From assembly GCA_963971425.1 (NCBI GenBank), contig OZ020520.1, forward strand, positions 24,694,754 through 24,758,753: 64,000 bases of DNA. Direction: 5' to 3'. Positions 23,413-52,784 of this stretch are shown here, in pieces (the first letter of the stretch is position 1; each line of letters begins with the position of its first letter). The position numbers and the translations under genes are program-made. The stretch comes from Bryoerythrophyllum caledonicum. Lineage: Eukaryota; Streptophyta; Bryopsida; Pottiales; Pottiaceae. The notes beneath the pieces were generated by a model. That model was not told the DNA's origin, ran no database searches, and was given only the letters and a program-made list of their open reading frames with translations.

Positions 23413-25023
23413 CTAAACTAACTGAAAGAAAGAATCTATAGTGGTTTGATGACAATCTTCCAAACGATGAGATGAAACTTCCTTTTGAAGTGCTCGGATG
23501 GTTCTAATGTGTGATAGAACATCATTTGGTCTTTGTTGAAAGTATTTTTCCAATGTCTCTAGACAACGCTCAGCAGCTCCAAATCCCACAACTTCTTCCA
23601 CTACATCAACCATAGCCTCATCAACATCAACTTCTTGATGTTCGGTAGGAAGCATATCCAAGAAATCCTCATCGACGAGTTCATAGGGATTGTTTAAGTC
23701 ATATTCTAGCTCATAATTTTGATATTCATGAGCACCCATGACAGAACTCTCTCCAATATTAGAAGATAACAATGTCAATTGATGAAGTAAAGCAGTAATC
23801 TCATCAACCTCTTCTGTCTGTCTAGTTTCCTCTATCTCCCTCTCAAAAAGGATTGAAAGAATGCTAGTATGTTTCCAACAATTTTTAATTGTTGTTGTTG
23901 TGACTCCAACACGCCACGCCCGCTCTACCATAATGACAGCTTGATACAAATCAATTGCAAACACCTTGTTTGCAATAAGACATTCTATCTCATATTGAAT
24001 CAATAACTTTCGGTATTGTGCCTTGAAAGATGTTATTATGCCTGCATCCATAGGTTGAAAACGGCTAGTTGTGTTTGGAGGTAAGAAAACTAACCGTGTC
24101 ACCCTTAATCGTGAACCCACGTTTGGCACCTGGTGACCAGAAAAATTATCCTCAAGCAAAATTACCTTTTCTTTCTGTGCCAATATCATTCTCCTCTCAA
24201 AATCCAGTATAAATTGCTCAAAAATATCCGTAGTCATCCATGCCTTCTTGTTAGCAGCCCATTTAATCCCTAAGTTTTCTAGATTTAAAATGTGCCTAGA
24301 AGTAAAGGCTATGGGCCTTTGAAACTGATTAATAATCAGTGGAGGGAGGCAAATAGTCCCTGTAGCGTTTGCTGTGAGCGCTATGGTAATTCTCTCTTTC
24401 TGTTTCTTCTTTCCAGAGAGTCTTCTGGTAGCCAAAGTACGACTTGGCTCCAATCTATAAATTAGGCATGTCTCATCCATATTAAAAACATCATCACTGT
24501 TGTATTCTGATACAAGAGCTTTGATTTCTTCCATCCTCAATACAACTTCTGCTGAAGTATCAGTAGAAGCATCTTCTCCGTGACGCGTATAGGCTCGAAT
24601 GTTAAATCTTTTTTTTAATTTTCCTACCCATCCATATGAGAAGTGAAGTTCCTTCTCGATGTAATATCTTGGCATTAAAGTGTACAATCACTTAGCTGCA
24701 GCTATCACTAAGTCATCGGATATGGTAGCACCCCGCTCTTGCATTGTGATAATCCAGTTGAAGGTGGCTTGTTCCACTTCCGGACACTGCACCTTTCTAA
24801 TGCGTTTTGTATCAGCTAAATGACCGACATCAAAAGTAGTGAGTGACTCCTTACATTTCAACAACCTACCGATAGTCATCTCCGTAACTGAAGTTTCATA
24901 CCTCGCATTGGCCCATTCAGTCAAAGCCTTGTTGCTCATTTTTTGCCCTGAAGTCAACAAATTCTCACGATGAGATAGAATCTTTTGTTTCTCTTTAAAG
25001 GAGAACTCCCGGCTCCTAGCCAT
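23413..25023 (-). pseudogene. pogo/Tigger transposase with one in-frame TGA
   Basis: A 537-codon frame begins at ATG 25021-25023 and is broken only by TGA at 24688-24690. Before the stop lie a Psq/CENP-B-type helix-turn-helix (about residues 1-60, FSFKEKQKILSHRENLL) and the start of the second helix-turn-helix. After it comes the DDE_1 catalytic domain: first Asp in VFNMDETCLIYRLEPSRTLA, second in VILLEDNFSGHQVPN, third in PPNTTSRFQPMDAGIITSFK. Apart from the stop the gene looks intact, so inactivation is probably recent. The transposase would cut at the CAGT ends of the host element. Confidence 0.88.
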
Positions 25024-34745: not shown

Positions 34746-35555
34746 GTAGAATTCACAAATAGTGTAGTAGTTGGGTAAAGGGGGAAGTAGTTCCATACTA
34801 CTAACCCATGTCCGGTGGGCATGGACTTAGTGGTGGAATGAACGGACATTTTATTCACGCCGGCCCCCTCCGGGGACCGGCGTTCTTCTTCTTTGTAGTA
34901 GTTGGCATTTAGTGTAATGATTTGTCACTACACTAATTGCCCAGTTCACAATTAGTGTACAGGTTCGCTTTTAGTGTCCACTACACTAAAAGTGATATTT
35001 AGTGTAGTGAGGTGGTTGTGAGTTCAAGTCTACACGCTGGAGTCGTGCCTACCACCATAGTCTATCAAACTATGGTGTAAGAGCAAGTCCAGTCTTTCCC
35101 CGTCAAATGCTTCCGGCAACGGGGATTGACGGGGTCACTGTGGGAGGCGGGAGGGGAATGCCGGGACCCTGCCCTAGTCGATGCCCTGAAAGGGCTCCCG
35201 GCATGGGCTTACCAGTGCCCCCGTGGAGCTCCCGGAGCCACCGTGACGATCCGGCAGGGCATTAAAAAAATGAGTTCCATAAGGGGAGGTTTTCAAGAAG
35301 ACGCTAACTAATTGCCTTCACAAAACAAGATTGTCCATCACTTTCTCATAACAAATCCAAAAGAATGAATCAAAGCTTCACACATAGACAAAAATTATAA
35401 TTTATGAGAAAAAAATACAAAAAAACTCAATTTTTTGTGGATCTTTGAATGACCTATGTGACATGAAAAATGAATGAATTTGAACATTTTATAAGGCTTT
35501 CATGCAAATACAAAGTACAAAATCTGTACACTTTAGTACATTTATAAGAAATATA

Positions 35556-37148
35556 TTAAAAGTCACCATCATATTCAGAAGTTATGGAGGACCAATAATC
35601 TTTAGAAAATGTAAGAGTTTGTCCTTCTATTTTCTGATTGACTAACCTAGTGCAAATTCCTTTCTTGTTAACTAGTACTACACCTAATTTAGAATTTGAA
35701 TGTTGCTCTATACCTGCTAAATTAAATTGTAAGGTTCCATGAACTAAAGTTTCTGATCTTATAAAAAGCCCTGGCCTACTGGATGTAGAAAACTTATACC
35801 ACATTTGGTGAACAACAAAATCACATCCTTTAATGTCACCATGATGAAACCATGTAATAATTGATGCTCCTTTATCCATTGAATCAATATGAGGTTTGAT
35901 TTTTGAATTTTTTGATATGTGCATGGAATGCACATTTGTTAAATGGTCCTCTTGTCCAATAGCAATACACTTTAGCTCCACAAATTGATCTTCAAAAAAT
36001 TGATTGATGGAACTGCCAAATTTTTCCATATGCCTCCATATGTTACTTGCAATCAAATCACCTAAGGCCTTCCAAGAATATTCTTTTGCATGTGATTCTA
36101 TTGATAGATGATATTGAACCACATTACCACGTACATTAGGGCCTCCATGAGAACCATATCCATAAGTGATTGATAAGTAGTTTCCTCTATTTTCATCTTT
36201 CCCACTTTTTCCTCTATATGGACAATTTTCATAGTAAGTATTTCATTCTATTAAAGTACTTTTACAAATTGCTTTTTGTAATAAGTGAGTTATGTAAAGT
36301 AAAGAAATATAATCATTAGTCAAATGATTATGATGAAAGATTTTATCCTTTATGATCAATGCTCCATCTAAAACTAATAAAGACTCATCTCTTGTACTTA
36401 TTATTTTTTCTTCTGAATAATTTTGCTCCCAACTTCCAAGTATCTTTATATTTTGAATGTATCCAAAAAGTATCTTCTAATTCATATTGAATTTGCTTAC
36501 TTTTTTTTCTCTTTTTGTTTTGTCCTGTACTATCAATCATTTTACATTTTGTAGATAATGTAGTAAAACATACATGAACATCAATTACTTTACTAATTCC
36601 AAAGTGTTGCAATATTTCACTTGCAAAATTATTATCTTCTATTTTACATTTAATAACATATTGCTCACTTTGTTTTTCATTTATGATGTATTGAGAAAAT
36701 TTCTCAACAATTCTATGAAATTCTTCTATGTCTTTAATGGGCACCACACCACAAATACACAAGTTCATCTCTCTCTCCTACAAAAATTTTCTACTTCAAA
36801 ATTATTAGGTACTTTACATTTTTTGCATGTAATTTGACTCTTTGTAAATTCTCTTAGACAAGATTCACAAATTTCATGACAATGGCTTCTATAATCATTT
36901 TTATGTGGGGTTGGAGATTGATGTTCTTTAGGTTTTAGTGCAAATATATTTTTAAAATATGGAAGTTGTAAGGTAAATGTGCATGGTACCACAAACATTT
37001 TTGAAAATGACTCTCTTCTCTTATGATTACCAAATACACAACCCTTAGCCATTTCCCCTCCATAGTTAAGTTCCAAAATATTTTTGTCCTCAATATAAAG
37101 CACACTTTTGACTTCAACCCCACAACTTTTTGCAATTGGAGATTCCAT
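35556..37148 (-). pseudogene. RING-like plus 2OG-Fe(II) dioxygenase-like gene, frame-broken
   Basis: Three consecutive minus-strand ORFs (37148-36765, 36768-36385, 36122-35556) appear to be one disrupted gene. The first ends with a cysteine cluster HCHEICESCLREFTKSQITC followed by KKC, a RING/treble-clef-like pattern. The second overlaps it by four bases, an apparent frame change. A further frame change near 36390 leads into an open stretch broken by one TGA near 36240, then GNYLSITYGYGSHGGPN and the third ORF. There PHIDSMDKG (His78, Asp80) and SETLVHGTL (His128) are about 50 residues apart, the HxD...H iron-ligand layout of double-stranded beta-helix dioxygenases; TET/JBP-like or AlkB-like proteins are possible relatives. 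Introns could explain some of the breaks. Function is inference. Confidence 0.5.
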
Positions 37149-37454
37149 ATAAAAAACAATCGAGATTATTAAATTAATAATATTGTGTATTTGACATCCA
37201 ACTATAGAAGTGAAATAATTATAATTAAACAATGTTTTTTCTTTCACCTATCAAAAACCACTTAAAATAAAAGTACTATCTCTTTGTATATTTAAAAGAA
37301 GCATCAACTAACAAGAATAACAATACTACTTCATTTTAATCTTTATATACACTTCGGATGAACATAAAAAGTGAAAGAATGTGTTGGGATAGGCTTCAAG
37401 TAAAGTAAAAGATTAAAATAAAAAAAACTTTTACTTTTGTCATATAATTTAAAT

Positions 37455-37650
37455 CAAAATAAAAAAGTAAAGTGTATTGAGGTGTATTTGAGGTGTGCTT
37501 GAGGTGTTCTTGAAGTACACCTCAAGCACACTTCAACATGCTTTTATTTTTTTCATTGGATTTCAACCAAAAGTTTATATAAAAAAGTAAAAGCGTGTTG
37601 AGGTGTGCTTGAGGTACACCTCAAGCACACCTCAACACGCTTTTACTTTT
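37455..37650. repeat. Two hairpins, one a perfect 33-bp palindrome
   Basis: The arms 37583-37615 and 37618-37650 are exact reverse complements separated by two bases (core GAGGT-AC-ACCTC). A related but imperfect hairpin of the same motif (TTGAGGTGTGCTTGAGGT) lies at 37468-37545. Both sit between the divergent dioxygenase-like gene (-) and the transposase (+). Confidence 0.9.
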
Positions 37651-38105
37651 CTCATTGAATTTCAACCAAAAATGACTCTCAAACATTCAAATCAATGTGG
37701 GAGGGGCAACATACTAAAAATGCACTATGTACATTTTTTTGGTTATAATCTCACACTTCCTACTAAATTTTGTACTTAAAATGGGAGAGCATGACTATGG
37801 ATTAAGGTAACAAGCTTTGAAATTGCACAGGCTCTGATATCATCCACCATATTCAAATATATGTGGCTTTTATATGTAACAAACAATGGGAACTGCTTCT
37901 TGTGTCATACTCTTACAGTTGTCCTCGTTGAGCAATGTGCGTGGAAATAGGGGAATAATTCTCACTTGCACCATGAAAGTACACATTTAAATGCAATCCG
38001 AGGTCCCGCTAGAGGGCCCTGTGCTGGGTTCATTTTTTCTCTAATGTAGAAGACTGTTTTAGTTTTTTATTTTTTGTGGAAGTGGTTATTGTTTAGGGTC
38101 AAGAG

Positions 38106-39416
38106 ATGGAAAGTTGGGAGGATGAGCTTGAGAGAAACCTTGGAGTGGATTTAGGGTTTGAAGAAGATTTTGAAGATGAATTTGAGAATGAGCTATTCAT
38201 GCAAATGGTTGATGTGGTGTCTTCAGAGCTTTTGGGTGAGTCCACTTCCACTCCCAAGGTTGGTGGAAGTGTACATGGTCGGAAGTTTGTATTCCGTGAG
38301 AGGGAAATCTATCATAATCTTTTGTACAAAGATTATTTTGCGGATGTCCCTACTTATGGACCTTTGTTGTTTAGGAGACGTTTTAGGATGCAAAGAGAGT
38401 TGTTCTTGACCATCGCGGATGCAGTTGCCAAGTTTGATCCCTGGTTTGTGAAGAAATTAGTTGCCTGCGGACGTTTGGGTCTCTCAACCTTGCAGAAGTG
38501 CACTGCCGCTATCCGTATGCTTCCATACAGAGCAGCAGCAGATGCAACTGATGAGTACTGTAGGTTGGGAGCGTCTATAGCCCAAGAGTGCTTGAGGAGG
38601 TTTGTTCTGGCTATTAGAGGGTGTTTTGAGTCTAAGTACTTGAGACAGCCGACCAAGGAGGATTTGGATTTGCAGATGAGTATCAATGAGGCACGAGGCT
38701 TCCCGGGGATGTCTGCTAGTCTGGATTGCATGCACTGGACTTGGAAGAATTGCCCCGTTGCTTGGCAGGGGCAATACCACGACAAGGACAAAAATCGGAG
38801 CATCATTCTAGAGGCAGTTGCAGATCAAAGTCTCTGGATTTGGCATGCATTTTTTGGCTTACCAGGGGGAATCAACCACATCAACGTGTTGGACCGTTCC
38901 CCTTTCTTGCTCAACTTCTTGCGAGGGGCTGGTCATGACATCTCATTTCAGGTAAACGACCATGTCTACCCCCGATACTACTTTCTCACTGATGGGATTT
39001 ATCCACCCTGGTCATGTTTTGTGCACCCAATACATGAGCCCGACGGTGAGATGAAGAAACATTTCACGAAGTGTCAAGAGGGTGCCCAAAAGGACGTGGA
39101 GAGGGCATTTGGTGTGTTACAGGCTAGATGGGAGGTCATAAAATATCCCGTGCGCCAGTGGGACTTAGGTATCATCAACGACATTATGATGTCTTGCATC
39201 ATTATGCATTACATGCTTTTGGAGGATGAGAAGGACTTGGCACTAGAGCCTTTTGAGGATTGTGGGATTCCAGTGGAGCTTACCTCCCATCCTGATACAT
39301 TCCACGATTTGCAAAGTGGCACTAGGGAAATAGAGAGCATAAAGTCACACTTTGGTTTGAGGAATGATTTGATTGATCACCTTAGGAGTTTGAGGGGACG
39401 TGGTAGGACTTTGTGA
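38106..39416 (+). CDS. PIF/Harbinger transposase, plant type (PF04827)
   Basis: An uninterrupted 436-codon ORF encodes the DDE nuclease that cuts and joins Harbinger ends. The N-terminus is acidic (EDELERNLGVDLGFEEDFED). The central part has the family segment LGLSTLQKCTAAIRMLPYRA. The catalytic residues fit the family: first Asp in MSASLDCMHWTWKNCPVAW, second in HINVLDRSPFLLNFL, and Glu in QKDVERAFGVLQARW. Length and order match plant_tran proteins. This is the only full-length transposase in the window. It lies inside a well-bounded element, but its DNA-binding partner is broken. Confidence 0.95.
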   Translation: MESWEDELERNLGVDLGFEEDFEDEFENELFMQMVDVVSSELLGESTSTPKVGGSVHGRKFVFREREIYHNLLYKDYFADVPTYGPLLFRRRFRMQRELFLTIADAVAKFDPWFVKKLVACGRLGLSTLQKCTAAIRMLPYRAAADATDEYCRLGASIAQECLRRFVLAIRGCFESKYLRQPTKEDLDLQMSINEARGFPGMSASLDCMHWTWKNCPVAWQGQYHDKDKNRSIILEAVADQSLWIWHAFFGLPGGINHINVLDRSPFLLNFLRGAGHDISFQVNDHVYPRYYFLTDGIYPPWSCFVHPIHEPDGEMKKHFTKCQEGAQKDVERAFGVLQARWEVIKYPVRQWDLGIINDIMMSCIIMHYMLLEDEKDLALEPFEDCGIPVELTSHPDTFHDLQSGTREIESIKSHFGLRNDLIDHLRSLRGRGRTL

Positions 39417-41063
39417 GCTCAAAGTAGGAAACTACAACTTTATTCAGAGTAGAATCGGGCATTCAAGTTTAGGCCTTGGCCATAGTTTCTATAAACAAAT
39501 TCATTACCTCCTACAATCCCATGTTGGTTTGCATCTACTTGAATTGAATTTCCTAAATTGTACAAGCTCTGAGGGTGAGAGAATGCTACAGTTCTATTCC
39601 CTGTGAATTGAGGTTGGAAAGTTTGTGCCTCTGGTTGTTGCTGAGTGCTTTGGACACATGACATTGACTCCTCCCAGAAGTTGGCCTGACTATCCTCTAC
39701 ACATCAAAACAATACAACAATATTACAATTGGATAGATAAAACAACACATGCAAAAGAGTCCCTGCAGTCTACAGCGAAAATCCCACCGGACACAGTCAA
39801 CACAGATGAAGCAGACCCGGCCGAGTCAGTGGACTCTTGGGCCCAAAAAAAACGTCACAGCCATCATCTCTGGATCGAGGGGGAACAGAAACCTATCAGC
39901 GACAAAGACAATCGCAGGCACCATCTACCGGGGACCTCGAGCGGTGTAGATTACAAAAAAATTAAAAAAGAACCTGATGACAACATCTGAACCAAAGAGG
40001 GCAACATTAACTTCGGAGAGAGCAACATGAGCATGCCAGAGAACAAAGGAACTCAAAGCCTAGGCCGAGAAGGAGAAAAAATAAAAAATAACAAAAAACC
40101 AATTGCCTTCAGCCCCGAACATCACATAGTCTCCATGCACATGTCAAAGTCCAACTGGGGATGAAAGAAAGCGAAAAAAAATTAAAAAAAATGCAGGAGG
40201 TGCATCGAAGTGCTCCGGAGCTGGTCGAGCAGAGACCGAACCAGAACTGATGCAGCAACCTTTCCCAACTGCAGACTTTCGTAGATTAAAGAAGAGAAAA
40301 AGGAAAGCAAATTAAATGAAACAAAAGAGGAAGTTGATAGTTGAATTGAAAAAGAATGGACGATGATGTGGGGAGTTGAAATGAAAGCAAGTCGAAGTTG
40401 AAAAAAAAAAAAAAAAACTGAAAGGAACATCATACCATTTGTGACACAGGACATAAAACACGACCTTGGAGCATTGACAGAAACATAAAAGAGAAACAAT
40501 AAAAAACAACCGGAAAGCTCGTCCCATGTACACCGCAAGCACTAGCAATTCGGTTGGGACACAGACTATGGGATGGCTGAAGACAACATTCACAGAGACT
40601 ACAAACCATAAAAAAAAAGGTGTCAACTTGCAGCCTGCATGAATTCGAGACGACGAACATGAGCAGGGTCGACATTGACAGGAACTCGACATTAAGAGAG
40701 ACCTAGGTTTAGTTGAAAAAAAATAAAATTGAAGAACCAAAGGACCTCCGAGATCGGCTACAGACTGCAGGAATTCGGCGCGGAGAGGGCATCGACACGG
40801 CAATTCGACATTAATCAAGAGTTATAATTTTTTTTTAAAAACTTGTAGGCCTCAATAGCAGGCGAATTACCAGGCAAGGGGGAGTGCAGGGGGCTCGCAG
40901 CCGGAGCGACTGCAGAGGAGGGCGTCGACACAGTCGGAGCAGGCGCGACAGGTGACACTGTTGGAGCAGGTGCGGGACTCGACACCGCCGGAGCAGCCTG
41001 CTGGTTCACTACGCCAGCTAGGGCCACTCCTGCTGATGGAGAATTTGCAGCTTGGGAGGCTGT
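39417..41063. other. Spacer between the two Harbinger genes
   Basis: No gene was seen. It includes an A-rich stretch with a run of about 17 A (40400-40420) and a minus-strand Ala/Pro-rich reading frame at 40815-41027 that is in the same frame as the Myb/SANT pseudogene beyond its stop at 41064, so it may be an old C-terminal extension. Confidence 0.45.
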
Positions 41064-42020
41064 CTATTGCAGTCGGGGCCGCTTGCCCCTCGCAATTTCC
41101 GCCGCTCGCTCGGCCATCTGCTTCTCATGGTTCGCCTTCTCTCGCTTCGCGGCTCGCTTCTCCGCATCGATTCGGCGCTTGATGCGCTCTAGCTCCTCTC
41201 GGCGGCGGAGCTGAAAGTACTCCCGGGCCTCTTGATCGAGCTCTTCCATATTCAAGCGGAAGATGCTCATTGCAGAATGGTCCTGCATAGCCTCCGCCTC
41301 CCGCATGTTGGCCAAGGCCATCTGCTCCGTCGCCCTCGCTTAGGATTTCAGAATAGAATCTCGTCTCCTCGCTTCAAACAGCTCCTGCTTGGCGGCCTTT
41401 TGACCCCGCGGCCTCACCAACTCCCTTGGCGCCGCTTCACCTATAGCGGCACCCTCTCCTTCGGCGCTGCCACCATCCCCTTCTGCGGTCACTTCGACTT
41501 CTCCCTCCTGCGGTGGCTGCACCGGCAAACTCACCCTACGGGCAGCCATGGACGAAGCTCTAGGGCTCCCCTCCTGTGCGTGGCCCCTCCTCTGCACGTC
41601 ACGAGGGGATTCCCACCACTTGGGCACCTTCCTCAACAAAGTCCAGCAATGGAGAAAGCCAAACCTTTGTTGCTTTGGGTGCTTGTCCCTGTAATATTCA
41701 AGCGCCCGATCTAGCACATCCTCCATTGACGTGCCTGACTCTCTACAATCCTCCACCTGCTTGTACGCACCACAAAACTTAGAGACGTCATGCTTAATGC
41801 TCCCCTACTTGGTCTCTAGAGATCTTGCAGGACGAAGCGGACACCCCCTCCCCTTTGTGCGATTGAAGTGAGTGGTGATGCGCTCCCAGAATGCGGTGTT
41901 GCGCTGTCCATTTCCACAAATTGGGTACTGTGAAACAACCAAAAAACTCCTACACAAGCAGGTCTCTTCTGCAGAAAAATTCTTTGCCTTCCTTCCCCTT
42001 GCCGCCTCCACACCTGCCAT
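41064..42020 (-). pseudogene. Myb/SANT-like Harbinger partner protein, two in-frame stops
   Basis: A single frame from ATG 42018-42020 is broken by TAG at 41805-41807 and TAA at 41340-41342. The N-terminal Myb/SANT trihelix reads AKNFSAEETCLCRSF and later AFWERITTHFNRTKG. The first stop falls where homologues have ETKW, so a TGG to TAG change fits. After it come DVLDRALEYYRDKHPKQQRF and FLHCWTLLRKVPKW, the NAM-associated region of such proteins, and a charged coiled coil ending ERAAEIARGKRPRLQ. In Harbinger systems this protein binds the transposon ends and takes the transposase into the nucleus. This copy is probably dead. Confidence 0.8.
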
Positions 42021-42216
42021 GGTGGCATTGACTGAGTTTGCAGGGAGGAAAATGTCTCCTTGCAAAGCTGCAATTTTTGCCGAGACCGGGAGGTGGATGG
42101 CGAGACGCAACAGGGTGGAGTGAGGAGTGCGGAGCCAATTGGGGTGCGGCTAAACGGCCGGGCCCGCCAAGCGCTGTTGGCGGGAGCCGTTGGCGTGGCG
42201 ACTGGGCTTGCTCTAA

Positions 42217-46695: not shown

Positions 46696-48348
46696 TCAAG
46701 AAGTATCAATGTAATTTATGATTTCATTTGCATGTTCTACTCTGGTTTCTTGAAAATATAAAATATGAGCTGCTTGCATATTATGATCACTTTTATAATC
46801 AATGTGATGTTTTTGTAATGAATTTATATTGATACTCTGGATAATTATATGTGAATGACGCATTGTTTGTAATCTTGGTACAAGAAATTCCCATTTTGCA
46901 ATTGAATTTAATCTGTTCATTTCATCAGTAACACATGCATCTACACGAAAATTGGAAATAGTTAATGGAGCAAGTAAATATAATTTTTCTTTGGTACGCA
47001 CACGAGATAATGCTACATAAGTTAATCCGTGTTTATTAATATTACTTGGATTAAAAGCTACATCATCCAATGATAAACCTTGCGAGCGATGAATTGTTCG
47101 TGCTGCGGCTAATTGAATAGGAAATTGTATACGTGTTAAAAGATACTTGTTATTCTTGCTAAGATTTATTTCTTTTGAAACTAACTCTATAGGAGTCCAA
47201 GTAGAATCTACATTTTGATCTTCATATAATTGAGCATTTGCGAACCTTGCAGTTTTACCAATTTTTTCATTGAAAATTTTTATCCATACATATGTTTTAT
47301 TGTTAATTGATGTGGCTGTTTTGAATAATCCATCTGCTCCATGAACAAGTCCATCTGAGGTGGCATAATTGTGGGTGAGTTCCACCAACATATTTTTTTT
47401 AACTTTGATTGTAGTTTGAAGTCCGGCAGTTTTATTTGGATTGTCTGGAATTTTAAATGTTGATGGTAGTGAATGATGTCGAATATCAATTGCTTCAAAA
47501 TTAAATGTAGGTTCTGTAGATTTCATAAACTCTCTATTGTTATGAGCAGATGTTTCCGTATTAGTGTAATATAAATAAGGAATTATTGAACTTTCTGGAG
47601 GTTTTTTCAAACATAAATTATTTATGAATTCCACATCTTCTACTGTATGAGTTGCCTTTCGGAATCTATTTAATATATTTATAAATATGGGATCATTTTG
47701 ACGCACAATGGTTTGTAGCTCGTAGCATTTCATATGTTGATGCCAAAAATTTGGAGCTATAGCATTAAGACCATAGTCAAGTTGTTGAAAAACCCATTTA
47801 TCTCTTACTGGAGGAGCTTGATAAAAATCACCAGTGACTATAACATCTAAACCTCCAAAAACTTTATTTTGTACATGCATAATTGAACGAAGTCGTTGAT
47901 CAATAGCATGTAACATTCTAGCACCTACTAGTGATACTTCATCAAGTACAATAAATCGCAATTCTTCATATTGATCTGTTAATTTATTCAGCATTTCTGA
48001 AGATAAATTATTAAGATTTTCAAGTGATTGATTGATAGGAATATGTAAAGCTGAGTGAATAGTAGTTCCATTGATATTAAAAGCTGTTTTTCCTGTGTAA
48101 GCCATAAGTAAGGCTTTTGCTTTTAACGGATTGGAATGTAGGTCTTTATGATAAATACGTAACAATCCTTGAATTATGGCATGAAGTGTGTATGTTTTTC
48201 CTGATCCTGCACCTCCAGTAAGAAACAAATATAATGATTCATTTGGAAAAGTTCTTTTCCTATACATTATATCATCATAAATTGATCTTTGCTCTTCATT
48301 AAGAGATCTTAGTATTCCAAAATATTCGTCATTTTTCATAAGTTCCAA
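46696..48348 (-). pseudogene. Helentron PIF1-like helicase domain
   Basis: Superfamily 1 helicase motifs are intact: Walker A LFLTGGAGSGKTYTLHAI, motif II FIVLDEVSLVGARML, GGLDVIVTGDFYQAPPV, and the C-terminal AARTIHRSQGLSLDDVAF and TYVALSRVRTKEKLYLL. The end of the ORF already contains the start of the endonuclease (SININSLQKHHID, LYFQETRV). It stops at TGA 46696-46698, with the same frame continuing into the next ORF. Confidence 0.9.
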
Positions 48349-48362
48349 AACATTATTGTTAT

Positions 48363-50090
48363 CTACTGATGTATTTTGTACGTATTTGTAGACTTTGGTT
48401 TTATATAAATATCACTAGCTAAGTCATATTTTTCAGTATTCATGCTCATTACAATCGATTCCGTTTCTTCAATAGATGCATCTTTCCAAATATCAAAATC
48501 CTGACATAAAACCAATTCATTTGCAAAATCTTGAAGATCTATCCATTCATCACCACAATCTTCTAATGCATTTTTTTGTATTTGGTAGTTAAATTTTTTT
48601 CGATTACATGAAACCATTTCTACTTGTTCGTCATATGCTTCTTTCCATGTTTCCTTTCCAATCTTTTGAGACTCTTCAGATACATTGAAAGGAACATATA
48701 GTAATAATTGTTCACGACACCAATTTTCTATATCTTTTATTTTATTGTAATGAACAAATCTTATTATTTTAGACTTTCTTCGGATCGAGATTTTATTTTT
48801 ATAATAGTTATAGTCTGCTACAAAGGCAGCCAAACATATGTTTTCTAAATTACTTGGTCTATCAATGTATTTATCTATAATAGATTTGCACATAACTTCT
48901 GTGCAATCTTTGTCTAATTTAAGTAATTGGTTTTGAGGTTTTAAAATAAATGCACGCTCTTGTGATGGTGATGTATTTATAAAACCAAATGAACGAGAGC
49001 AATGATATAATGGTATTGATAAAATAAGATATATTGCTAACTGAGCTGACATTTGTTGGGCATTTAAAAAGGCATTTCCTAGTTTCAAAATTCTTAAATT
49101 AGCATCTGTTTTTTCTGCAATACATTTTTGTAAAATTGAATTTAACTCTACAGTAATAGTTTTATCAACTTTTGTCATAAAGGATGTACAATAAGTGGCA
49201 GCAGCATATGGATCTAATATAAATTGAACATCTGTATTTGCATACCAATTATGAGCTATAATTTTGTTAAAAGCATTGGTACATATATTACTTAATGAGC
49301 ATTTTAGAAACACTTGTGGTCTTTTAAGTTGGCTACATAACACCAATATGTAAGTTTGTTCATCAATTTCAAATTTTGATAGAAATTCATCAAATTCAAC
49401 CTCAGTTCCTACCTCTACATTTTGCAAATATGTAAAAATTTCTTTAGCCTTCTTTTTTAAGAATGATAGTATAGAGTCGTTTGTCTCAGCGAGAGGTTCC
49501 AATACCATTGTACGATTCATTGGAGGAAGTGGGTAATGAAATCTACATATAGATTGTCCTTTCTTTTTGCATGTTCGTGAATGTTTATGGGTTTGGGCTT
49601 CTTGTAAAGCTGCAGGTAACAAACTCTTATCACTGGATATGTATTTATCAACAAAACTTTCAATTTCTTTGTTGGAATTAGTTCTAAATTGAGGTGCATT
49701 TTTTACCCAAATTACAGCATGCTCATGTTCACTTCCACGATGTTGAAATTCGGTTATAAAAAAAAAATCCAAAACTTCTCCTAAAATAGATGATTCTTTT
49801 TTGAGCAAATCTCGAAAAGCTTTTGTACGATGATTATAGTATAAAGCGCAAGTCACCGGATCAGACCTTATTAACTCAGCAATATGACTAGATTCCAATA
49901 AATCAAAATGTGGTAAATTGAGTCGTTTAGAGTTTAGCTTATACAAAGTTTCAATTAATGGTATCCACAATCGTTCTGCACTTGTCAAAGTAATAAAAAA
50001 AGTTGGAGGTCCCAATTGTCTAATCATAGCAAACAAATTTTTCCTTAATCCTTCAACATAATCTGGTGATGTGCGTAATTTCTCTAAATC
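48363..50090 (-). pseudogene. Helentron Rep (HUH nuclease) domain
   Basis: The Helitron-like N segment NLFAMIRQLGPPTFFITLTS leads to the HUH motif in EFQHRGSEHEHAVIWVKN and to a cysteine-rich strand HKHSRTCKKKGQSICRFHYP. The paired tyrosines expected of Rep fit DPYAAATYCTSFMTK. HUH Rep proteins nick one strand and join ends during rolling-circle transposition. The frame changes near the 3' end (about 48380) before the helicase part. Confidence 0.85.
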
Positions 50091-50093
50091 TCA

Positions 50094-51596
50094 AAACCCT
50101 ATATGAGATTGTAAAAGTTTATCAAGATTGGGTTCATCAACAACTTGCCCAGCGGTTAATCTTCTTCCTGAAAGCTTACCTTTTCGAATTCGAATCCAAC
50201 TAGAATTCCTTACTTTTTGTATACAGATTTTAATTGCTTTGAAGAAAATATTTTCGATGTTTGTAGCAAAATCATGATCCTTGTGCAAAATCTCCCAACT
50301 TGCTATTTGATGATAAGAAAAGTTTTCATTAATGTTTTCATTCCTAGGATGTCCATAAAATAATGTTGGATGATTCAATTCTTCACTAAACTTGTCTTTA
50401 AAAATTCCTATAGGAGAATATTCTTGACCGGGAGCAACAGATAACATCTTATCAAAATCATGAATTTTATCAGATTCTAAGAAATTATGTACTAAAGTTT
50501 CACTTGGTGGATTATCAATTTCTTCTTCAAAGTCATTTTCATTTATAGTATCACATTGAATATCTAAATTCATACTTGCTTTTAGGTGTAAAGAAAATAA
50601 ACTATACCACTGTGGACGAATTCTAACATTACATTCTTCATAAATGGATGTTTTTATTAAATCCTTCAATGCTAACATTGTCTTATTTGGTCGTATGTTT
50701 CCTGCCATATATGGGGACTTATATTCTAATCGGCGTTTTAATAACACCCCAATTGTTGTTCCATCTTCAGGTAAACGTGGAAGAATGGATTGTGTTAAAT
50801 CAATATTTGCAGGCACATTTACAATACTTCCATGTAATTTGTATTGACCATAATTGTACAATCTATGTATTTGTGCAAATGCTAAGCGTGGTGATATTAA
50901 TCTTTCTTCTAGTGATGTCAATTCTTTCACACTTGTAATGATATAATTTCTTGAAATGTTATTTGGAACACAAAAAACTGGAATCTTCTCATTTTTAACA
51001 CAATTTAAACAAATATTGCATACATATAAATTTTCATCTTGTTTTAATACAAGACTTCGATGAAGAAAATTGTTTATTTGGTATAGAAGCTTTTCATTTA
51101 TCAAAGTAGATGATGAAAGAAAATTATATCTTTCACACAATTCACATACAAAGGTTGGGGTATCATTTAATTTATCATGAAATTTAACAAAAGGGTCATT
51201 TTTTCTTTTTTGTAACTTTTGAATTAAAGTGGAATTGGCTTTTGCTTTGGATGATAGAAGTTTCATTCGCTTAACTATTTGTACTGCAGTTTTATTGAGG
51301 GTTGGATTTTTGATAACAAATGAATTTGCTTTATCAACATAAGTGTTATTGACATCATTGTTTATAATTTTTTCTAATTCAACATCCATCTCTTTCCATC
51401 TAGTATATGATCGTTTTTTTGGTGATGTATAACATTGGGTTGAATGTAAAGTAACATCAATTGGAGTGATGTGAGAATCTATTACTTGTGATTTTTTCAA
51501 TATGGGGGTCTTAGGTTTTAAATTTCCAGATTTCAAGTTTCTAATGTGACGCATTACTTGATTCATTGTTAAATCAAGTTCGTTTTTCTGAAACAA
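50094..51596 (-). pseudogene. Helentron linker with zinc-finger-like motifs
   Basis: About 500 codons join the OTU and Rep parts. A Cys pair FVCELCERYNF and a second pair YVCNICLNCVKNEKI look like a zinc-binding region typical of the N-terminal part of Helitron proteins. The ORF ends at TGA 50091-50093, after which the same frame continues DLEKLRTSPDYVEGLRKNLF, the start of the Rep region, so the stop is a nonsense mutation. Confidence 0.8.
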
Positions 51597-52591
51597 AAAA
51601 TTTGTAGCAATTTCGGAAGTCGTTGAATACTAGCAATTTCGGAAGTCGTTGAATACTTTGACATTAAAGTTCTTAAAAGGTCATCTAAATCTACAGTCCA
51701 AAACATTCGTTTAATTTTTTTATTTATATTTCCTACCAAATTTTGATCCATGTCTAATTTCGGTTTGGATTTTATAATTGTTTCATTAGCTACACTAGGA
51801 AATGAGCCCATGTACATTTCATTGTTGAACACAACATCATTTCTATTTTTTGTTAATAAGTCTTTGGAGTTAAAAATATCATGGTCAAATGTTTTAGTTG
51901 AAGTACTTGAATTTAAACATTGTTCATTGAAATTTGATTGCCAACTAGAGAGATATGTTTGATTTGATTCATCCTGAATCAATGTCTCTTGTGAACTTAG
52001 AACCTCAATTTCATGTGATGAACTTGAATCTAAATCAATCACATCATTATGACATTTATTTGTATTATTAGTATTACAACTATTATCATTGGATAAAATT
52101 ACCGGCATTGATTGGTGTATTTTTTCAATAGGTTCGTAATGAGAGTTTCCAAATGCTAAATATAATGGTTCCAATTCAAATTCTTGTCCAGATATACTAA
52201 TGATTTTTGCACTATTATTAAGCCAAACATAAATGGGTTTTTGTAAATAGTCGGAGATCCATTTGATGGTTGTAAAGTCCCCCCAAAGTCCACCATTACT
52301 TGCACTAAGAACCATTTTTTTTATATAGTCATGCTCATTATATACACCTTCATGTAAATCATGCAACCATTGAGGATTTATTTCTTGATTTCGTGTTTGT
52401 AGTGCTTTTGGTGTATTTAAAACTAAGCATTGGGCAAGATGATTCATAGAATTTTTTCTTAAGAGAATAGATGAAATCTCATAGTCCAAGAGATATGAAA
52501 TAGAGTCGAATAAACAATCACCAACAATGAATTTATAAGTAGTAACTCGACGTAAATTACACTCTTTTAATTTCTCATCTATAAGAGCCAT
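51569..52591 (-). pseudogene. OTU cysteine protease domain of the Helentron protein
   Basis: The N-terminal domain begins MALIDEKLKECN and contains the OTU catalytic Cys motif KFIVGDCLFDSISYLLDY and the His motif AFGNSHYEPIEK about 130 residues later, so the catalytic pair is preserved. A Ser/Asn-rich linker follows. The frame is thrown out after SKYSTTSEIA by a 26-bp tandem duplication; with a single copy the frame runs directly into the next ORF (NFLFQKNELDL). OTU proteins remove ubiquitin-like modifiers; the role in Helentrons is unknown. Confidence 0.85.
51604..51655. repeat. 26-bp tandem duplication that breaks the Helentron ORF
   Basis: TAGCAATTTCGGAAGTCGTT plus GAATAC occurs twice back to back. 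Since 26 is not a multiple of three, it shifts the frame by exactly the offset seen between the OTU ORF and the next ORF. Confidence 0.95.
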
Positions 52592-52784
52592 TATATCAAT
52601 TTATATATATATATTAATTGAAACAAATCTATAGTGATAAATGTTTGATAAAAAGTATTTACAAAGTCTAATTTTTTAATTTACAAATAAATTTTGAAAT
52701 AATGAAAATAATAATGGTAGGAAATTCTATATTGTAAAACAAGTTGATAAAAATGAATGCTACAAAGTGAAATAATAAAGGTGA

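Follow-up and report, generated by a model that had tools for sequence, protein, structure and literature searches.

The stretch of DNA analysed here, which we call the window, is 64 kb of the genome of Bryoerythrophyllum caledonicum (C8:24694754-24758753). At positions 35081-42213 it contains a PIF/Harbinger transposon of 7.1 kb, and this element carries a third gene beside its transposase and a Myb/SANT-like partner gene. Our searches covered the window and its genome (437 Mb, 894 contigs). This genome has 31 matches to the NAC domain, each above the cut-off, against none in 14 control genomes; these and a Methyltransf_7 frame in the window mark the host as a plant. The element is built as follows, with positions counted from the first base of the window.

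35078-35080: target-site duplication TAA, left
35081-35094, plus strand: left terminal inverted repeat GAGCAAGTCCAGTC
35263-38047: stretch with the TET-like gene, absent from sister locus L030, where 138 other bases take its place
35556-37148, minus strand: TET/JBP-like gene, intronless, broken here; the open frame of a sister copy has 527 aa
35556-36242, minus strand: dioxygenase domain, open frame of 228 aa, with H118xD120xxD123 ... W131 ... F142 ... H168GT ... K185
36765-37148, minus strand: N-terminal Cys/His-rich region (GCxxxxH ... PC ... CHKxCxxC ... C)
37493-37671: tandem repeat, unit about 92 bp, multiplied in other copies
38106-39416, plus strand: PIF/Harbinger transposase, open frame of 436 aa, Plant_tran match
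41064-42110, minus strand: remains of the Myb/SANT-like partner gene in three broken frames (NAM-associated, PF14303)
42200-42213, minus strand: right terminal inverted repeat GACTGGGCTTGCTC
42214-42216: target-site duplication TAA, right

A sequence-only reading of this DNA had proposed a Harbinger element with 14-bp inverted ends, a TAA duplication, a transposase and a Myb/SANT partner; the element, its ends, the duplication and the transposase were confirmed. The order is TAA then GAGCAAGTCCAGTC on the left and GACTGGGCTTGCTC then TAA on the right; 13 of the 14 end bases are inverted, and with up to 2 mismatches allowed the end sequence has no further site in the window. The 3-bp TAA/TTA duplication, the short inverted ends and a Harbinger DDE transposase (Pfam Plant_tran, E 2.4e-81; DDE_Tnp_4, E 1.9e-8) are those of PIF/Harbinger elements. 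Three motifs in the transposase are present that we take to be its D, D and E sites. The partner gene is there but broken: PF14303 is matched by two of its three frames, once above (E 2.8e-10) and once below (E 0.004) the cut-off, and its Myb/SANT pattern was judged by eye. Among 14 related loci (L009-L022) the left end is found at 8, the right end at 8 and both ends at 5. Both ends with TAA on each side occur at 4 of the 14, three of which have one flank in common and are hence not independent insertions. The tandem repeat has roughly ten units or more in L009 (5066-6400), against about two in the window copy.

The third gene is spread over three frames. In sister copy L009 (on C7) a single open frame, 533 codons long and 527 when counted from the ATG, runs uninterrupted through the same sequence; hence the three frames in the window reflect damage, not exons. 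Relative to L009, insertions of 2 and 7 bases put the middle of the gene out of frame, a further 1-base gap lies at about 37149 beside the start codon, and a TGA (36243-36245) stands just ahead of the last 228 codons. One common frame holds both the Cys-rich and the HxD..H parts. A cysteine cluster and an HxD...H core about 50 residues apart had been noticed from the letters alone; both are real (H118 and H168 are spaced by 50 residues), and the cluster is largely kept in four full-length relatives. The label "RING-like" is not established, since no RING or other zinc-finger Pfam model exceeds its cut-off for the Cys-rich region (weak matches are DZR_2 at 0.087, zf-RING_10 at 0.24 and zf-C2HE at 0.041). 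The label "dioxygenase-like" is supported by homology of the TET/JBP type; the window copy itself is broken by frameshifts and a stop.

TET enzymes change methylated DNA in animals and algae. What kind of enzyme the gene family encodes is indicated by CMD1, the 5-methylcytosine-modifying enzyme of Chlamydomonas reinhardtii (7CY4-7CY8). Compared with 177,635 Protein Data Bank (PDB) sequences, the window domain matches CMD1 and nothing else at E<=10 (E 0.0031). The open sister L009 also finds CMD1 alone (E 7.7e-4), and a reversed-sequence control finds nothing at E<=10. A profile of the family retrieves CMD1 as its only match each time (E 0.38 with 11 rows, 0.055 with 22 rows). About 70-80 residues can be aligned, with CMD1 residue numbers placed by hand on the pairwise alignment with the window domain. 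Of the 11 CMD1 active-site residues that PMC7854593 names in the aligned stretch, 8 are identical (H345, D347, D350, I356, W358, F371, H397, T399); V342 and T337 are conservatively changed, and S335 is not kept. According to the available part of PMC7854593, H345, D347 and H397 hold the iron in CMD1, D350 contacts N4 of the cytosine, and I356, W358, F371 and T399 belong to the co-substrate pocket. D350 corresponds to D123 of the window family. Counting alignment rows that have a letter at the site, H118, D120, D123 and F142 are conserved in 21 of 21, W131 and H168 in 20 of 21 and K185 in 20 of 20, so the HxD...H facial triad of TET/JBP enzymes is present together with the residue that reads the base. 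As exceptions in the 22 rows, H168D occurs once (L037), W131C once, T170M twice and a residue other than I at 129 five times. L059 (which has stops and was one of 13 domain pieces fetched) and the broken L041 and L042 were left out of the rows. Viral contigs gave 3 pattern stretches and no relative; in PHROGs, ten families were hit, none of them by more than one of the 11 members (best E 0.0012).

A second line of evidence comes from the same genome. Run over it, the Pfam Tet_JBP model gives 11 matches, all of them weak and below the cut-off; because an E. coli control was also matched, this search alone proves little. Three of the 11 were read in sequence (L060, L061 and L062). L062 (C15:254600-255500) matches CMD1 at E 2.6e-10, and Tet_JBP (6.6e-5) and the Tet-like 2OG-FeII_Oxy_6 (8.4e-4) below their curated cut-offs; L060 matches Tet_JBP at 1.7e-6, again below the curated cut-off. 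These three loci represent a second, more canonical TET/JBP family with many copies: L062 has 125 tblastn matches in the genome at E<=1, several with stops. Window-family loci are among these 125 from 9.9e-4 up, the place of L009 at 0.45. When the two families are aligned with hhalign (72 columns, probability 94.8, pairwise E 5.3e-8), HxD, W, G.F and HGT are in register. The score is 57.0, whereas the best of 100 column-shuffled profiles scores 24.9 and the reversed profile 13.1. Subgroups of the window family, a split that leaves out 3 of the 22 rows, score 39.0 (A, 4 rows), 44.5 (B, 5 rows) and 50.7 (C, 10 rows). BLASTP of L009 against L062 gives 3e-7 for the pair. Taken with the CMD1 match, there is good evidence from these comparisons that the window family belongs to the TET/JBP group.

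The gene has multiplied. A DNA search with the domain returned 39 matches: 12 at full length (96-100%), 2 shortened, 1 at 83% and 24 of about 56 bases. At the protein level there were 103 matches at E<=1, many with stops or only part of the domain; we used 60 of these places, omitting second fragments and weak matches. Contigs C5 and C13 had no match in the DNA and protein searches with the gene or in those with the Harbinger and piggyBac sequences, in which every other contig of C1-C15 was matched at least once. The copies read fall into three groups, A (the window), B (L039, an open frame of 536 codons, 42% identical to the window over the domain) and C (L037, 539 codons, 38% identical). The 14 group-A loci, taken as 9.9-kb stretches, contain no transposase by blastn, and where they have the Harbinger right end it follows at most about 0.35 kb past the end of the shared left part. 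In three group-A copies, L017, L018 and L019, the Harbinger right end is present but the left border differs, lying at 35278, and the three have a flank in common. Of the 12 full-length copies, five have one flank in common and three another; hence some have multiplied inside other repeats. A search for the carrier of group B found none: around L039 we saw, by eye, no transposase among frames of at least 120 aa in 7 kb, and there were no convincing ends.

The 24 short matches were considered as the edge of a separate element and rejected as such, as a Harbinger right-end piece follows in 5 of the 6 places read. In these places (L023-L028 and 18 more) a gene-end piece, tandem repeats and the Harbinger right-end piece stand together in a GC-rich repeat, an arrangement seen by eye in 5 of the 6 and cut by N in the sixth. 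Adjoining a Harbinger fragment inside a repeat, the short pieces say nothing about nesting.

Group C has a different carrier. L037 and L040 together form a piggyBac element of 7.5 kb, with TTAA then CCCCTAA at one end, TTTAGGGG then TTAA at the other, and a DDE_Tnp_1_7 transposase. From 41 genome matches of this transposase we took 13 (75-100% identity, near full length). The TET-like gene lies 2.5-6.9 kb from 6 of these 13, where about 0.003 per copy would be expected. All six are among nine transposases that are 98-100% alike, the other three having no gene nearby. In all six elements homology extends on either side as far as the TTAA of L037 and L040 and breaks off no more than a few bases from it (spans 7.5-12.0 kb); the TTAA letters were read in one of them (L037 with L040), and the ends of the other five follow from homology. 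A search for further Harbinger copies had been proposed as a check; multiplied sister copies of the gene do exist, with piggyBac as a second carrier.

We conclude that the third gene is probably a diverged TET/JBP Fe(II) dioxygenase, with CMD1 as its nearest solved structure, carried as cargo by a Harbinger and in parallel by piggyBac. The window copy is a dead relic next to an open transposase frame. The earlier proposal, that a plant Harbinger carries a dioxygenase of the TET/JBP type, is supported by the CMD1 match and the L062 bridge. From the known activities of the family we infer that the gene may counter host methylation, which suggests a route by which such elements escape silencing. 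Proteins from open copies would bind DNA, perhaps via the N-terminal Cys-rich region. The enzyme made by any open copy would oxidise 5-methylcytosine on silenced copies of the element, and until the host restored methylation the transposase genes could be expressed. The element that bears the gene would benefit, as would, in trans, the short copies that have the gene and lack a transposase. A conserved Lys that follows the distal His, K185, points to 2-oxoglutarate as co-substrate, with ascorbate, which CMD1 uses, as the other option.

A number of observations weigh against this conclusion. First, other Harbinger copies with ends, transposase and third gene, which the sequence-only reading had led us to look for, were not found in the genome: the gene is within 12 kb of only 1 of 40 Harbinger transposase matches, the window's own. 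Second, CMD1 scores lower with the family profile than with single sequences, the domain of L039 has no PDB match, and full-length L037 finds only an unrelated succinate dehydrogenase chain (E 0.25). In L037, the piggyBac copy whose full sequence was read, Asp replaces the distal His; L047, which comes from another of the six elements, has His. The window family matches neither Tet_JBP (PF12851) nor 2OG-FeII_Oxy_6 (PF20515) in Pfam, and none of the 11 genome matches of the Tet_JBP model is a window-family locus; direct membership of Pfam Tet_JBP was therefore rejected, and the Pfam part of a profile check against TET/JBP and AlkB gave no match for the window family. The 22 alignment rows were drawn from open frames and not at random, a choice that favours conservation. 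Structure prediction had also been proposed as a check; the AlphaFold2 models of full-length L009 (11 rows; mean predicted local distance difference test, pLDDT, 45.3, about 21-44 in the dioxygenase part) and of the window domain (22 rows; pLDDT 39.8) are unusable. Third, constraint is weak or absent among young copies. By the NG86 method, younger pairs have ratios of nonsynonymous to synonymous substitution (dN/dS) of 0.43, 0.47, 0.54, 0.72, 0.88, 0.90, 1.14 and 1.51, among them the window against L009 (1.14, 11 changes), L037-L044 (0.72) and L039-L045 (0.88 and 1.51). Finally, L022, which serves in the deep comparison below, lacks Harbinger ends.

One could also argue that the gene belongs to the TET/JBP group and acts on another substrate or yields another product, such as thymine, N6-methyladenine, RNA, or 5-glyceryl-methylcytosine made with ascorbate as in CMD1. 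This is a possibility of some standing, if doubtful. Ascorbate is abundant in plants, and D123 preserves the CMD1 residue that contacts N4 of the cytosine. Group members do differ in substrate (CMD1, JBP, CcTet), as described in the available text of PMC12730594 and PMC7854593. The conserved K185 points the other way. Judging from TET2, it presumably occupies the position at which the co-substrate of 2-oxoglutarate oxygenases is often held by a basic residue.

It is unlikely that the gene is a mere passenger, captured by chance and of no service to the element, whose copies rise and decay with the transposon. The broken window copy, the weak or absent constraint among young copies, the many loci with stops or a partial domain and the common flanks of five and of three full-length copies, which place the multiplication of some copies inside other repeats, would all be expected of a passenger. 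On the other side, L009 and L022 differ with a dN/dS of 0.265 (452 codons, dS 0.65), catalytic residues are kept in open copies of three groups that are about 40% identical, and the gene sits in six piggyBac elements with transposases 98-100% alike. Between groups dN/dS is 0.21-0.48, with dS large or saturated. This pattern fits a protein that has long been preserved even as many of its recent copies degenerate. We prefer an anti-silencing function because the active site is conserved, because the deeper comparison shows constraint and because the gene is found in transposons of two superfamilies.

We consider it quite improbable that the gene encodes another double-stranded beta-helix oxygenase (AlkB, prolyl hydroxylase or other) that resembles CMD1 by convergence of the motif only. 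The missing Tet_JBP match in Pfam and the unusable fold models leave room for such an enzyme, but 11 window-family members match no oxygenase model of any family at E<=10 either, CMD1 stands alone in the PDB with the L062 bridge beside it, and the similarity spans about 70 residues, beyond the motif.

How the TET/JBP-like gene came to lie in the Harbinger is indicated by sister locus L030 (on C4), which is 94-95% identical through the transposase. It has the left end up to the base matching 35262, then the 138 unrelated bases, then the sequence from 38048 onward. That 138 unrelated bases stand where the window has 2.8 kb indicates replacement. As L030 lacks the region and has other bases in its place, the gene looks acquired, by replacement and with no visible insertion signature. 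L030 may instead have lost the gene. No right end was found for L030, and it was rejected as a complete gene-free element. Six further transposase copies (76-77%) have no trace of the gene by tblastn in 1.5-kb flanks, a distance that covers only its N-terminal part. It had been held against the cargo idea in advance that sister copies might lack the region with clean borders; L030 (95%) does lack it, but its borders are those of a replacement. Acquired cargo is thus more likely than a clean nested insert. That the gene is part of another element that jumped into the Harbinger is very improbable: L030 does lack 35263-38047, but the borders have, by eye, neither a duplication nor an end repeat, both Harbinger ends surround the gene at 5 of 14 related loci, no solo copy with its own ends and target duplication at these borders exists among the loci read, and the fungal transfers compared are likewise without signature in the available text of Kojima (PMC12730594).

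TET/JBP genes have been described in 11 fungal DNA transposon lineages, including a Harbinger (PHISTA) of rusts, in the part of that paper available (Kojima 2025, PMC12730594). A TET-like gene in a Harbinger was thus already described from rust fungi, and what stands is the plant: among the papers listed by searches of the open-access PMC literature we found no case of TET/JBP transposon cargo in plants, a partial coverage that excludes the 2014 KDZ paper, which may mention plants. As far as the accessible text goes, the fungal and the plant cases agree in that DNA transposons from several superfamilies carry a TET/JBP-type gene, that its borders bear no signature in the cases compared, and that CMD1 is among the nearest solved relatives (there of two of three types), whereas the fungal TET-bearing Harbinger has a TA duplication in place of the 3-bp TAA of the plant element. 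The N-terminal Cys-rich region and the short copies without transposase also set the plant gene apart, as does the piggyBac carrier, the word piggyBac occurring 0 times in PMC12730594. The KDZ transposons (Kyakuja, Dileera, Zisupton) likewise carry a 5-methylcytosine dioxygenase, but they are fungal and of another transposase superfamily (via the available text of PMC12730594).

CMD1 shares the HxDxxD...W...F...HGT core; its S335 and T337 are replaced here by H and S, and a conserved Lys is found here in the co-substrate region. CMD1 is not known to be transposon cargo. A plant transposon with its own anti-silencing gene is already known (PMC12730594, in the part available). Compared with plant PIF/Harbinger elements, which share the terminal inverted repeats, TAA duplication, transposase and Myb/SANT-like partner, the TET-like gene is extra here. 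The plant anti-silencing system just mentioned is presumably that of the VANC proteins of Vandal MuDR elements. VANC is a sequence-specific regulator and not an oxygenase.

Whether plants have TET equivalents is called unanswered and controversial in the available text of a review (PMC6949463). As a diverged TET/JBP gene lies in transposons that belong to two superfamilies and have multiplied recently, this question becomes directly testable. Natural open copies allow an assay of the activity, the co-substrate and the product, and within one genome the methylation of elements that have the gene can be set against that of elements lacking it. It is conceivable, at somewhat less than even chances in our view, that we are looking at a plant lineage with a large TET/JBP radiation, much of it in mobile DNA, with at least two families, one of them across Harbinger and piggyBac, that removes or alters 5-methylcytosine on copies of the elements themselves. 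If so, a plant would have a TET-type route in addition to active demethylation by the known glycosylase pathway, and in this lineage the disputed oxidised cytosines could stem from it. A TET-like gene in plant transposons would also bring plants into the arms race that has been proposed for fungi, with its repeated acquisition of a 5-methylcytosine dioxygenase by transposons.

The window holds other features outside the Harbinger. A frame of 424 codons with a DDE_1 transposase domain lies at 23413-24687 on the minus strand, and there is a Methyltransf_7 frame. A Helitron-like element (46696-52600, minus strand) contains a PIF1 helicase, Helitron_like_N, DUF6570 and an OTU protease in long open frames.

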